Assembly (NCBI GenBank): GCA_028287135.1
Contig: JAQBQE010000036.1
Location: forward strand, 1 to 64,000
DNA length: 64,000 nucleotides
Source of the DNA: Myxococcales bacterium
Lineage (GTDB): Bacteria; Myxococcota_A; Polyangia; Haliangiales; Haliangiaceae
Reading direction: 5' to 3'
Below the pieces are notes generated by a model. It did no database searches. It saw only the letters and a program-made list of their open reading frames with translations, and had not been told where the DNA came from. Position numbers and translations under genes: made by a program. Every line of letters begins with the position of its first letter. Positions within the stretch are counted from its first letter, which is position 1. Positions 7,838 through 64,000 of the stretch are shown piece after piece.

Positions 7838-19816
<11,979 letters not shown>

Positions 19817-53691: not shown

Positions 53692-53865
53692 ATGGCTCCC
53701 AAGGTCTACGACCCCGCCGAACGTGCCCGCGAGAAGGCTGCTTCTCGTGCAGAGGACGCCCGAGCGATTGCGTCCGGCGAAAAGAGTTCCCTGGCTGTTC
53801 GTCGCGACAACGCGTCGTTCGCGTTTCCTGACGCTCGGATTCGATTCCCCGCTCACGAGCGGTGA
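53692..53865 (+). CDS. 57-aa small protein (putative antitoxin-like partner)
   Basis: MAPKVYDPAERAREKAASRAEDARAIASGEKSS...; 4-bp overlap with next CDS. Confidence 0.55.
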   Translation: MAPKVYDPAERAREKAASRAEDARAIASGEKSSLAVRRDNASFAFPDARIRFPAHER

Positions 53866-54662
53866 GTCCCGCGGCACCGCCGCCCCCTCTCACACCCGAG
53901 GACACGCGGGTTGTCTTAGGGCAACTCGGCGACCTGATGGAACGCCTCGTGCTGGTCGGTGGGCAAGCGCTGTCCTTCTGGGCGGAGCACTACGCTGCGA
54001 GATTCGCGATCGGCGAGCCGGTCAACAGTACGGACATTGACTTCTGCGGCTTGAGCGACGCCGTCAACATTGCAGCGGCGCGATTGGATGGCGAGGGACG
54101 CGTGCCCAAGCCATTCTCGAACACCCCGAACACGGGCATCGTCGAATTCGTGGATGCGAACGGTTACGCCCGGGTCATGGACTTCCTCTTCGATCCCTTC
54201 GGTCTTCAATACGACGAGGTTCACCATTGGGCTGTGAACGTCGATGTCCCGCATCTTGGGGGTACGCTCTCGTTCAAAGTGATGCACCCGGTCCACTGCC
54301 TGGAGTCTCGCATTGCGAACGTGGGTGGCTTGCCCGGATACCAGAGTGCTCACGCGATCCGGCAGGCGCGCGCCTCTCTGCTCTGCGCAAAGGAGTATCT
54401 CCGGGACGTCCTAAACTCAGGTAGTCCGCGGGCTCCTCGAGTGGTGCGCCGACTCAATGAAAGAATTTATCGCTTCGCGTGGGGCAAACTGAACGCGAAG
54501 GTCGCGTTCCAACAGTATCAAGTCGACGCGTTTGAGGCAGTCCTAGTCGACGACGCTCTGGGGCATGAGTTTAACCAGATCCGCTATCCGCAGATGTGCG
54601 CAAACCTCGAAAGGAAGCGCGTACGCTGGGCATCGCGTGCATCGACAGTGACACCGGCGTGA
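53862..54662 (+). CDS. nucleotidyltransferase-fold protein (AbiEii/type IV TA-like)
   Basis: LVLVGGQALSFWAEHYA...STDIDFCG...RVMDFLFDPFG, NTase GG...DxD layout. Confidence 0.65.
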   Translation: MSPAAPPPPLTPEDTRVVLGQLGDLMERLVLVGGQALSFWAEHYAARFAIGEPVNSTDIDFCGLSDAVNIAAARLDGEGRVPKPFSNTPNTGIVEFVDANGYARVMDFLFDPFGLQYDEVHHWAVNVDVPHLGGTLSFKVMHPVHCLESRIANVGGLPGYQSAHAIRQARASLLCAKEYLRDVLNSGSPRAPRVVRRLNERIYRFAWGKLNAKVAFQQYQVDAFEAVLVDDALGHEFNQIRYPQMCANLERKRVRWASRASTVTPA

Positions 54663-59374: not shown

Positions 59375-60169
59375 TCAATAGCCCGACCCGGCGCCGCTGA
59401 GCCGCTGACGTTGTTCAGTCTCAATGATGCGTTTACCGTCGACCAGTACCAGTTTGCCTTTGCGCTTCCGGAAGAAGAAGAGTGACATGCATTCCCTGAA
59501 CATGAGTGGGAATGAAAGCCAACGCTCCATGTCGCAGCCTTTGGCAATCAGAACGGGACGTACTCGCCGAATATCGCAACCGTGATACTGATGATCGCAC
59601 AGATTGCGCGCGAGATTGTAATAGCGAAGCATCTGCCCGACAGCGCGATCGTCAACATCGCCAATCTTCACTTCGACGACCACAAGTTCGCCGTGGGACG
59701 GCCGGCTGAATCCAACGATATCGAAATAAGAACCCCGGCGTCGGATTTCCATCACAACATTCTGGGCGAAACCAGATGAGGACTCGCTTGCGTCACATTC
59801 CAGGTACTTCTCGCCCAGCCTTATCGGCTCTTCGTCGCCCCAGAGGTCGGGTTCGTCCCATGCTGCGTATAAATATAGATGGAGGTGTTCCTCCTTCTTG
59901 AGGACCCCACGCTCAAATGCTGTCGCTAGGAACGCACCGATTTCCCTTCGTTCCGGATCGGACACCTCCGTCTTCAGCGCTGCTCGGACCCCCTCCAGTA
60001 CATGCCCCAGGTATTCCGCATCACGCAGAGTGACCTCGGCACCCGCTGAATACAGACTCCCACAACTCGCGTGAGAAAGTAGATTCTCACCATCGGTGAG
60101 CGGTCGGCTCGTGCGTATGCAGATCCGCTTCCTGGCCGCTTCCAATACGCGTTGAGGCAGTAGGATCAT
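59375..60169 (-). CDS. PD-(D/E)XK/NucS-like nuclease domain protein
   Basis: SYFDIVGFSRPSHGELVVVEVKIGDVDDRAVGQMLRYYNLARN (D...ExK); ATGA overlap with upstream gene. Confidence 0.7.
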   Translation of the reverse strand: MILLPQRVLEAARKRICIRTSRPLTDGENLLSHASCGSLYSAGAEVTLRDAEYLGHVLEGVRAALKTEVSDPERREIGAFLATAFERGVLKKEEHLHLYLYAAWDEPDLWGDEEPIRLGEKYLECDASESSSGFAQNVVMEIRRRGSYFDIVGFSRPSHGELVVVEVKIGDVDDRAVGQMLRYYNLARNLCDHQYHGCDIRRVRPVLIAKGCDMERWLSFPLMFRECMSLFFFRKRKGKLVLVDGKRIIETEQRQRLSGAGSGY

Positions 60170-61947
60170 TTCGAAGCGAGAAGTAGAAACTTAACCTTCT
60201 CTACCTCGCCGCCAAAATCGGGATAGTTCAGGGTGATCTTGACGTCAGCAGTTGCCTCTACGAGTTCACTCCCCGAAGGCAGTTCAAGGTTGAACGACGC
60301 CATTCTACGTCCGATGTCCGGGTAGGATGGGTCTTCATAACTTTGGTCCCAATCTAGCTTTGTGGGCGCTAGTTTCTTTGCAGCCTTGGGAATCAATTGC
60401 TTCCAGTTGCTGTCGATAGAGAGCATTGGTGGTTCATCGACGTCCACCGCCTTGATTGCGTCGTAGAACACGCGAAACGTCAGAATGCGTTTAGCATCGT
60501 CTAGTAGTGAAATCTTATGCTGGGTGTCGCCTAGTTGGTGCCATTGCCCATCGACCTGAATACGAAACTCAGGACGTCGGACGAGATCCAGCTTTCGGCA
60601 GAGATAATCGTAGAGTTTGTTGATGTTCTTGGTCTGAACTTGCAAATTCAAGCCGCCATCGTTGGTCTTGAGTGCAATTGGGACGTCGCCAGCGTGTGCC
60701 GAGAGCAAATCCTCATTCTCGGCCTGGAAGAACTTGCCGTTTGAGCCGACCAGGAGGTCGTTCTGGAGCCGGTCGATGACGCTGTTCCAGGATGGAAATC
60801 GGCGGATCAGCCGACCGATGCGGAAGAGTGCCTTAATCGTGCCGTTGTTGTTCGCGAGGTCGACGTGCCTTAGCGCTAGGTTGGTTGTCCTCGCAGCCGC
60901 ACGAGCAGCCTCGAGTCGCTCGTCGGAGCCTACCGGGTTCTCTGCATCGAATTGCGACTCAACTGGTTTGATTACTTTTTGGTACAGGTTCCTGAACGGT
61001 GCGTAGTCTTCGTCCTTGCCGTCTTTGTCTAGATCCGCGCGCACTCGAAGAGTGGTGAGGGAGAGTAGAAATGCACAGTAGTACTCGGCCATTTCGTCGC
61101 GTGCGTCGGAGTCATCGCGCGCGAGTTTGATCTCGTCCGAGGAGAACATCTCCGCGATCGATGCGACGAAGACGGACATGGTAAGTAGGGTGTGTTGTGT
61201 ATTTTGATTCGACGAAACCTCGATATTGTTTTCGAGGATTCGGTTCTCTTGCATGTCGCACGCAAGAATTGCGTCCTTGAGCGCGCCGATGGGGCTAGAA
61301 ACGTCTAGTTCCTTCTGTTTCGCAGCCGAAATCTTCTTTTGCTTTCCGTTGAGTTCCGAGAAGAGCTCCTTTTCGCCCTGGAAATCTAAGTTGTAGATTT
61401 CAACGGAGAACTCGAAGTTCGGTCTGAACAGCGGGAAGGTGAGGTTTGCTTCCTTGTCAGATTTGTAAGCCCGCACAGCCTCGCAGATTCCAAAGTGCCG
61501 ATGAGCGGAATCGGTGAGGTGGATCTCGGTAGTGTCAATGACAAGCCTCCACTTTGGGGGCTTATTTTCGATTTCCTGTTTGGCGACGGAAAGCACAGCC
61601 GGTGGCCTGATGTTCCAAACAAGTGTGCCCAGGTAGATTCTCGGCACCGTGGCATTTTTCTCTTGCAGTAGAATTGACTTGATCTCTCCGATTTTTGCCG
61701 CGTTTTGACCGTGGTATCCATTGGAGTCATCACCGCGTTGAATCTTCGGATCGATCTTGATGAGTGAAGTCCCCAGCGTCTTGAACGAGGCACTCTTCTT
61801 GGAACTCTCGCGTTCGTATTGAAACCACGTCGCCAATTGCTCTGCGGTGACCTTGACGATCCATTTCTTGCGAACCGGTTGGTTGGGGCCGGTCTCATCA
61901 TTGATGGTGCCGAGGAGAGGAAGATCAAGTTCCATTTCGAACTCCAA
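60166..61947 (-). CDS. DndB/DGQHR-like protein (candidate DpdB)
   Basis: GTSLIKIDPKIQRGDD...HLTDSAHRHFGICEAV (DGQHR-like)...FSVEIYNLDFQGEKELFSELNGKQKKISAAKQKELD. Confidence 0.7.
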   Translation of the reverse strand: MEFEMELDLPLLGTINDETGPNQPVRKKWIVKVTAEQLATWFQYERESSKKSASFKTLGTSLIKIDPKIQRGDDSNGYHGQNAAKIGEIKSILLQEKNATVPRIYLGTLVWNIRPPAVLSVAKQEIENKPPKWRLVIDTTEIHLTDSAHRHFGICEAVRAYKSDKEANLTFPLFRPNFEFSVEIYNLDFQGEKELFSELNGKQKKISAAKQKELDVSSPIGALKDAILACDMQENRILENNIEVSSNQNTQHTLLTMSVFVASIAEMFSSDEIKLARDDSDARDEMAEYYCAFLLSLTTLRVRADLDKDGKDEDYAPFRNLYQKVIKPVESQFDAENPVGSDERLEAARAAARTTNLALRHVDLANNNGTIKALFRIGRLIRRFPSWNSVIDRLQNDLLVGSNGKFFQAENEDLLSAHAGDVPIALKTNDGGLNLQVQTKNINKLYDYLCRKLDLVRRPEFRIQVDGQWHQLGDTQHKISLLDDAKRILTFRVFYDAIKAVDVDEPPMLSIDSNWKQLIPKAAKKLAPTKLDWDQSYEDPSYPDIGRRMASFNLELPSGSELVEATADVKITLNYPDFGGEVEKVKFLLLASK

Positions 61948-62062
61948 TGTTGCGGACGCAATTTCAGACGTAGCGAGTGGATGTGCAGGCCGTTCTGCCG
62001 GCGGCGGCGTTCGCGCTTATAGAGGCGTGGTCGGCATCTGGCGGCAGCGTGGCGCGCGTCGG

Positions 62063-62085
62063 CTGGGCTAGAGGAACTAGCCCAG
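62063..62085. promoter_or_regulatory. 9-bp perfect inverted repeat (ctgggctag-aggaa-ctagcccag)
   Basis: Palindrome in the long intergenic region upstream of the DndB-like gene. Confidence 0.4.
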
Positions 62086-62356
62086 GGGGCTGACATACGC
62101 CACGAGGGGCCAACCGGCTGGCGACGCGGGGCGGCCGAACGGGACTGCAACCCACCACCCCAGACTGCATAGCGTTTCCAGTATCGGTGTATTGATCCGC
62201 GATGCCAAGCCATGGGGCCGATATCCCACGTGCCGGTAGCGCGTCTAGGTCGAAGCGGGGACCAAGAAGCGGAGCACGTAGCCCGTTCGTGCTTGGAGTC
62301 GTAGTGCGTTTTGAGGATGCCCGTTCTCGAGCAGAAATCGTTGGAACCAAGGCTGC

Positions 62357-62716
62357 TTATTCTGGCTCCGTTGCGAGCAGTGCCTGGAGTACCGCCTCGA
62401 AACGGCGAAGACTCGCTTCATCCGCTCGTTCGAGGAGCGCCACGATGCGCATGTACTCCGGCGCCCGATCCCGCGGCGCGATCTCGGACCATCCAAGGAG
62501 TTGGTCAGGAGTTACGCGGAGCACGGTCGCGATATTTACGAGGGTGATAACGCTGGGCATGAACTCGCCACGCTCGATGCGGCCGTAGACCTCTGGAGCC
62601 ATCCCCAGCACCTCCGCCACCGCGGATTGCGTCAGCCCAAGGCTGGTGCGCGCGTGGCGTGCCGTTTGGGTGATGGCTCGTCTAAGTCGTAGTTCGGGCG
62701 CCTCTTTATCACCCAC
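62357..62716 (-). CDS. XRE-family HTH regulator
   Basis: ITQTARHARTSLGLTQSAVAEVLGMAPEVYGRIERGEFMPSVITLVNIATVLRVTPDQLLG. Confidence 0.92.
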   Translation of the reverse strand: MGDKEAPELRLRRAITQTARHARTSLGLTQSAVAEVLGMAPEVYGRIERGEFMPSVITLVNIATVLRVTPDQLLGWSEIAPRDRAPEYMRIVALLERADEASLRRFEAVLQALLATEPE

Positions 62717-62887
62717 GCTTGTAGTTGACGGTGCGCGTGCCGCGCGGTAAAGGATGTATCACGGGTGCTCGCGGAAGGATGTGCAGCGTCCTTCGAGGTG
62801 GGCAGGTCGAATTCAGTTCGGGCCTCGATCCCGGCCAGCTGGGCCGGGTGTCACACCAAGAAGGTATCGAGGGGGTGGAGGTAAGGC

Positions 62888-63580
62888 ATGCGCTCGGCGA
62901 TCGTCCTCTTAAGTGGTGGTCTTGATTCAGCGACTGTAGCGGCCGTTGCACGTCGCGACGGCTACGCCATCCACGCGATCAGCTTTCGCTACGGACAACG
63001 GCATGCGGTCGAGGTCGCAGCCGCGGAACGCGTGGCCCGGCACCTTCGCGTGACAAGTCATAGGACGATCGAGTTGGACCTTCGGGCGATGGGGGGCTCG
63101 GCACTGACCGCGGACATTGACGTGCCCAAAGGCCGAAGCGGTGACGAGATGTCCAACAACATCCCGAGCACCTACGTACCAGCACGGAACACCATCTTCC
63201 TCTCCCACGCACTGGGGTTTGCGGAGGTCATTGGAGCGCGAGACATCTTCATCGGCGTGAACGCGCTGGACTACAGCGGCTATCCCGATTGCCGCCCGGC
63301 ATTCGTGTCCGCCTTCGAGCATCTCGCGAATCTTGCGACAAAAGCCGGCGTAGACGGCTCGGCGTTCAAACTGCACGCACCGCTGATCTCCATGTCGAAA
63401 GCAGAGATCATTCGACTGGGCATCTCGCTCGGTGTCGACTACGGGGTCACTTCGAGTTGCTACGATCCGACCGCGGACGGGAAGGCTTGTGGTCAGTGCG
63501 ACTCGTGCCACCTTAGGCTTCGAGGCTTTGCTGAGAATCAGCTCGCAGATCCAATCCATTACGTCGGGCGTGCGGCATGA
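62888..63580 (+). CDS. queC: 7-cyano-7-deazaguanine synthase QueC
   Basis: [39 protein letters not shown]...[44 protein letters not shown]...[24 protein letters not shown]. Confidence 0.97.
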
Positions 63581-64000
63581 GGTACGCAGTCAAGGAAATT
63601 TTTTACACGCTGCAAGGCGAAGGGATTAACGCTGGTCGTTCGGCGGTCTTCTTGCGGTTCAGTGGCTGCAATTTGTGGTCGGGACGGTCAGAGCATCGCG
63701 ACAGCGCGATCGGATCATGCAGTCGATGGTGCGATACCGATTTTCTTGGCATGGACGGGACGAACGGAGGTCGCTACACGCTTAGCGAACTCACCGACGC
63801 TGTCGACTCCTGTTGGCCGCACGCTGACGGGAAACGGTTCGTCGTCTGTACCGGCGGCGAGCCCCTGCTACAGGTGGACGAGCCTCTAATCGAAGCTCTT
63901 CACGCTCGCGGCTTCGAAATTGCGGTTGAGACCAACGGTACCATTCAGGCGCCGGCAGGGATTGATTGGGTGTGTGTCAGCCCAAAGGCCGGCACGAAGC
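63577..64000 (+). CDS. queE: 7-carboxy-7-deazaguanine synthase QueE (3' truncated; absent from ORF track)
   Basis: [36 protein letters not shown]...[14 protein letters not shown]...[35 protein letters not shown]; 4-bp overlap with queC. Confidence 0.95.

Follow-up and report, generated by a model that had tools for sequence, protein, structure and literature searches.

The window analysed here is a 64,000-nucleotide stretch from a soil bacterium of the Myxococcales (GCA_028287135.1, JAQBQE010000036.1). It opens an 85-kb contig (C65) in a genome that is 59.5% complete, and it ends within an island for 7-deazaguanine DNA modification (Dpd). A first-pass annotation of the window had placed the edge of such an island at its end, and the rest of the contig, whose numbering continues that of the window, bears this out: read on past 64000, the contig shows a complete modification operon, queC-queE-queD-dpdC-dpdB-dpdA-dpdB, with dpdA 2.7 kb beyond the window end. 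On either side of this operon lies a couple of overlapping genes, one for a protein of the DndB/DGQHR kind and one for an HNH or PD-(D/E)XK-like nuclease. The genes are as follows:

59375..60169, minus strand: PD-(D/E)XK-like nuclease gene (264 amino acids, active-site motif), downstream partner of the DndB-like gene
60166..61935 from ATG (60166-61947 from TTG), minus strand: divergent gene of the DndB/DGQHR superfamily (PF14072, motif DSAHR)
62357..62716, minus strand: XRE/HTH_3 regulator gene (119 amino acids; PF01381, 50.1 bits, cut-off 23)
62888..63580, plus strand: queC (preQ0 synthase), which opens the dpd operon (TIGR00364, 213 bits, cut-off 150)
63577-64215, plus strand: queE, its first 424 bases in the window, to 64000 (TIGR04508, 326 bits, cut-off 240)
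64224-64589, plus strand: queD (TIGR03367, 110 bits, cut-off 89)
64640-65578, plus strand: dpdC (PADLOC DpdC, 4.7e-66)
65575-66696, plus strand: dpdB1 (NF041060, 400 bits, cut-off 300)
66699-68003, plus strand: dpdA (NF041059, 544 bits, cut-off 200)
68006-69148, plus strand: dpdB2 (NF041060, 467 bits, cut-off 300)
70172-71086, minus strand: HNH nuclease gene (PF01844, 22.5 bits, cut-off 21.4)
71083-72684, minus strand: DGQHR protein gene, 533 amino acids (TIGR03187, 44.7 bits, under the cut-off of 58.85)

Judged by its gene content, the locus is a real, compact Dpd island. The annotation had named an extension past 64000 as a check, with ordinary tRNA queuosine genes and no dpdA as the adverse outcome; dpdA is present, and that alternative is rejected. 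DpdA conserves the motifs expected of a zinc-binding transglycosylase, and the genes for preQ0 supply (folE, queD, queE, queC) are represented by queC, queE and queD, all above their cut-offs, together with a FolE-like gene elsewhere in the genome (contig C36; 147 bits, below the cut-off of 181.6). The locus thus shares dpdA, dpdB, dpdC and the preQ0 genes with the Dpd system, in which synthesis by dpdA-C is combined with a dpdD-K restriction operon. That operon occurs in most islands, not all; here no dpdD-K gene is present in the stretch from the urease genes to the AddA-like helicase gene that follows the far couple, DpdH was not found in the 59.5% complete assembly, and two couples of a DndB-like and a nuclease gene are present instead. 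What the annotation described at the near edge was also confirmed, including the 4-bp overlap of queC and queE, the run of queE past the window end and the lower G+C content, which is 53.3% for the window couple compared with 66.4% over the window as a whole and 71% in the urease genes nearby. The XRE/HTH_3 gene, described as divergent, is indeed divergent from queC but shares its strand with the couple genes; it is a probable regulator of the island and was not found in other dpd loci. All the features named were present, but the island is longer than had been drawn, reaching about position 72684. Between dpdB2 and the HNH gene, about 1 kb (contig 69149-70171; L002:11149-12171) holds only unassigned open reading frames, possibly a degraded gene. 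A genus-level search with the neighbouring putative UreD gave a match in only one of ten relatives, so that no empty site could be defined.

Within the window couple, the two genes overlap by 4 bp (ATGA), as the annotation had described. The probable start of the larger gene is an ATG at 61935, which has a GGAG 7 nucleotides upstream and aligns with the start in Nannocystis pusilla, giving a protein of 589 amino acids; the TTG at 61947 that had been assumed would give 593. The annotation took this protein for a DpdB with a variant motif and suggested a hidden Markov model (HMM) search of 60166-61947. In such searches the Pfam DndB family PF14072 matched at 33.1 bits, above its cut-off of 29.1, placing the protein in the DndB/DGQHR superfamily, but the DpdB model NF041060 gave no match at E<=1. 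Neither did TIGR03233, the curated equivalog for DndB of dnd operons, at the same threshold, and TIGR03187 reached 29.8 bits, under its cut-off of 58.85. On a DpdB profile the protein scored -0.6 bits, compared with 466 and 537 for the two true DpdBs, which carry an invariant VDGQQR where the flanking non-DpdB proteins have DGQHR and the window protein has DSAHR. The identification as DpdB is therefore rejected, and the protein is a divergent member of the wider DndB superfamily. DSAHR is identical in the N. pusilla orthologue and reads DSHHR in a relative from Sinorhizobium meliloti. Searches of viral contigs and of phage records turned up no relatives, and the AlphaFold model (pLDDT, predicted local distance difference test, 39.5) was too poor for use.

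Its 264-amino-acid partner is probably a nuclease, as suggested by the series FDIVGF-x(9)-VEVK-x(11)-Q, which follows the PD-(D/E)XK pattern D...ExK and is kept in the N. pusilla orthologue. In the far couple, the HNH and 533-amino-acid DGQHR genes likewise overlap by 4 bp, the DGQHR motif and the HNH residues are conserved, and the pair closes the far side of the island. Sequence searches of the PDB returned chance matches or none, the 264-amino-acid protein having no match there, and neither couple has a Pfam match to DUF262 or DUF1524.

A scan of genomes with a DpdA profile yielded 80 dpdA loci, to which the window genome and plasmid loci were added for counting couples. A third, non-DpdB DGQHR gene was present in 12 loci, from Myxococcus (two), Nannocystis exedens, Pirellulaceae, Rhodopirellula, Occallatibacter, Cyanobium, two actinobacterial metagenome-assembled genomes, plasmids of Bradyrhizobium and Agrobacterium vitis, and the window genome, and in all 12 it had a co-directional neighbouring HNH gene. 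In A. vitis an insertion sequence element lies between the two genes, and the Rhodopirellula partner has no Pfam HNH match and fits the HNH-partner profile, itself built with that sequence. The HNH family of the couples occurred in none of the remaining dpdA loci surveyed. Of the scan loci, 63 have 5 kb or more on both sides of dpdA; among these we counted a couple only in 8, both a couple and dpdD-K in 1, dpdD-K (or DpdE/F-like helicases) only in 50 and neither in 4. DGQHR-nuclease couples and dpdD-K are thus nearly mutually exclusive at dpdA loci (Fisher p about 1e-6, or 2e-4 with each genus counted once per class, for flanks of at most 10 kb and genera that are not fully independent). The helicase criterion is generous and was added after the first count; without it p is 9e-5. 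The A. vitis locus, outside the 63-locus set, carries its couple alongside dpdD, dpdK and dpdJ. The dpd locus of Paraliomyxa miuraensis has neither kind of couple and no dpdD-K; beside its dpdC and dpdA (L054:7793-8965) is a gene for a 390-amino-acid protein without a Pfam match, whose C-terminal stretch (RLIIESK) resembles an endonuclease core.

A second line of evidence comes from Nannocystis. In N. exedens and N. pusilla the sequences that flank the same site to left and right are collinear at 85-95% identity, as are dpdC-dpdA-dpdB at 83%. The stretch from dpdB to hflX (named from reading the open reading frame), 2.7-3.1 kb long, cannot be aligned, and holds a DGQHR-HNH couple in N. exedens and a couple of the window type in N. 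pusilla. That one slot holds either couple argues that the two kinds do the same job. In N. pusilla, dpdC-dpdA-dpdB and the cassette lie between two copies of a 70-bp direct repeat, 94% identical (L055:8807-8876 and 15245-15314), possibly a trace of cassette or island insertion. The window-type couple was found in two of about 400 Myxococcota genomes searched and adjoins dpdA in both, although strong dpdA matches were present in just 5 of 379; the window nuclease gene was found in this genome alone among the 379.

Since the operon is complete, two coupled pairs flank it and dpdD-K is absent from the locus, and in view of the near exclusion, the Nannocystis swap and the place of the window couple beside dpdA in both genomes that have it, we propose that the couples are the restriction half of the island: swappable two-gene, modification-sensing restriction modules that would be split analogues of DndI and SspE and would read the 7-deazaguanine mark. 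We give this reading a probability of about 0.63. The annotation's suggestion that the coupled nuclease is an unusual restriction component is likewise the best inference from the exclusion and the swap. Going by the functions of their families, QueD, QueE and QueC would make preQ0, DpdA together with DpdB would exchange guanine in DNA for it, and DpdC would convert the inserted preQ0 into its amido form. The DndB/DGQHR-like protein of each cassette, a member of the ParB superfamily, would then act as a reader of 7-deazaguanine driven by nucleoside triphosphate (NTP) and control the coupled nuclease, in a predicted complex that would disengage from marked self DNA, so that the nuclease would nick or cut unmarked incoming DNA.

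This scheme borrows its logic from IscS-DndBCDE-DndI defence, in which DndI carries both a DGQQR ATPase domain and an HNH nickase. There, ATP hydrolysis and release are stimulated by the mark, and nicking is confined to unmarked DNA (PMC11662687). We suggest that in both settings a ParB-superfamily NTPase with a D-x-x-x-R motif detects the mark and governs a nuclease against unmarked DNA, and that the logic of DndI from phosphorothioate systems has here been divided between two genes and coupled to another kind of chemical mark. DndI is a single polypeptide of DUF262 (DGQQR) and DUF1524 HNH domains, whereas the couples are separate genes with a DndB-type domain, the window nuclease is PD-(D/E)XK-like and the mark is a base rather than sulfur. 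A relationship between DGQHR and DUF262 domains is recognised, and GmrSD and SspE (DUF262 and DUF1524) likewise pair a related ParB/Srx-type domain with a nuclease (PMC4619093). GmrSD targets modified DNA, unlike the couples as we propose them. Because that enzyme, a related ParB-like domain with an HNH nuclease, cuts modified DNA (PMC4619093), and phages protect their DNA with such bases (PMC6884629), the couples might instead be type IV-like enzymes attacking foreign 7-deazaguanine variants such as phage dG+ rather than unmarked DNA. We regard this as very improbable, as such an enzyme would have to distinguish foreign from resident 7-deazaguanine, and the replacement of dpdD-K and the couples beside dnd genes would be left unexplained.

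Those last couples came from searches that were seeded with the 533-amino-acid DGQHR protein or its family rather than with dpdA. Six non-DpdB plasmid records matched, two of them beside dpdA and one, on the Pseudomonas aeruginosa plasmid ppae01, with an HNH and a DGQHR gene beside dndEDCB (L142:4881-6792). Two more are Agrobacterium larrymoorei records of equal score; in one of these, Ti plasmid pTiAF3.44, the HNH and DGQHR genes, annotated only as hypothetical, lie about 4 kb from dndE (L141:4089-6773). In Myxococcota, the two best non-DpdB matches were one beside dpdA and one beside dndD, the latter a couple of DGQHR (561 amino acids) and HNH (312 amino acids) genes directly adjoining a dndD/dndE phosphorothioation operon (G043:C29, L137:9449-12075; DndD 617 bits). 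A more distant DndB-family gene in G076:C9 (L138:9581-11112) overlaps by one base a gene for a GIY-YIG nuclease, the third nuclease fold so paired, with no known modification operon in view. On the Leptospira weilii plasmid pLiSL18 (L143:5713-7642), a DGQHR gene is followed by a 299-amino-acid gene that matches no Pfam family, with phage genes and a gene for a restriction endonuclease nearby, again with neither dpd nor dnd in view. In S. meliloti T073 psymA, the gene for the DSHHR relative, unannotated in its record, is coupled to one for a 164-amino-acid protein with a HELSH motif, which was not recognised as a nuclease, and adjoins tyrosine recombinases (L008:13380-15440).

The L. weilii and G076 couples, and the S. 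meliloti relative with its unrecognised partner, are what would be expected if the couples were free-standing defence or abortive-infection cassettes that gather in defence islands and have no functional tie to the mark. We think this unlikely, given the near exclusion with dpdD-K and given that searches in which dpdA played no part led back to modification operons, both in the plasmids, where two of six matches stood beside dpdA, one beside dndEDCB and one of the two from A. larrymoorei about 4 kb from dndE, and in Myxococcota, where the two best matches adjoin dpdA and dndD.

Several points weigh against reading the couples as mark-sensing restriction modules. The window-type couple is recorded at two loci only. 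In N. pusilla (L055) the couple genes are in pieces through frame breaks, where assembly error or decay is possible. The PD-(D/E)XK assignment of the 264-amino-acid protein comes from its motif, its HMM matches all being under cut-off (YhcG_C 16.9 bits, cut-off 32.5; NucS 22.2, cut-off 216; PADLOC PDC-S02 15), and its AlphaFold model, at a pLDDT of 36, is unusable. DSAHR is unlike DGQHR, and NTP hydrolysis by the window protein is a prediction. When the window protein family was compared with the DGQHR-HNH family, profile against profile, the match was not significant, and what links the two kinds of couple is accordingly found in shared superfamily, gene coupling and slot rather than in close homology. 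In addition, DndB has been reported as a regulator of phosphorothioation (PMC4507180) and DpdB described as a ParB-like ATPase of insertion (PMC12839542), and dpd islands commonly hold additional dpdB copies (PMC11888242). The DndB-like proteins could on these grounds be additional factors for modification or its control, comparable to DpdB or DndB, and determine the site or amount of the mark, with the small nucleases preparing DNA or being incidental. This too seems improbable to us: the island already has two canonical DpdBs, the same type of couple adjoins a dnd operon with its own dndB, and the extra DGQHR gene comes together with a nuclease, is often encoded on the strand opposite the dpd operon and goes with the absence of dpdD-K.

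Elements of this arrangement have appeared before. DGQHR proteins were tied to dnd by phylogenetic profiling and curated as TIGR04172 (PMC3226654). Passages of the GATOR-GC study concern the same kind of island and already note Dpd islands without the restriction operon, additional dpdB copies and HNH genes near some islands, such as one (PF01844) near the dpd genes of Hydrococcus rivularis; the DGQHR partner, the coupling, the swap and the PD-(D/E)XK form are not described in its relevant passages (PMC11888242). Dpd-like YprA systems also have a 7-deazaguanine cluster, with PD-(D/E)XK sometimes replacing a PLD nuclease (PMC12458937), but they are built on large YprA helicases, which were not seen at this locus. 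A literature search that missed some of the main Dpd papers returned no description of DGQHR-nuclease couples as a Dpd restriction half.

More broadly, and with somewhat less than even confidence, the couples may belong to a general two-gene class in which a DndB/DGQHR-type NTPase is joined to an interchangeable nuclease (HNH, PD-(D/E)XK, perhaps GIY-YIG) and serves 7-deazaguanine or phosphorothioate marks; the window couple would be its PD-(D/E)XK form with a DSAHR active site. The island offers a compact candidate mechanism by which cells with such marks may destroy viral DNA that lacks them, without the usual eight-gene cutting machinery. The two-gene replacement, the Nannocystis swap and the recurrence of this gene design next to phosphorothioate operons make the step that separates self from non-self directly testable, and suggest that mark-reading nucleases have been exchanged between unrelated modification chemistries.

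Upstream of the island, a nucleotidyltransferase-like gene (53862-54662, plus strand; NTP_transf_8 16.4 bits, cut-off 26.3) lies in a dip of G+C content beside the urease cluster.

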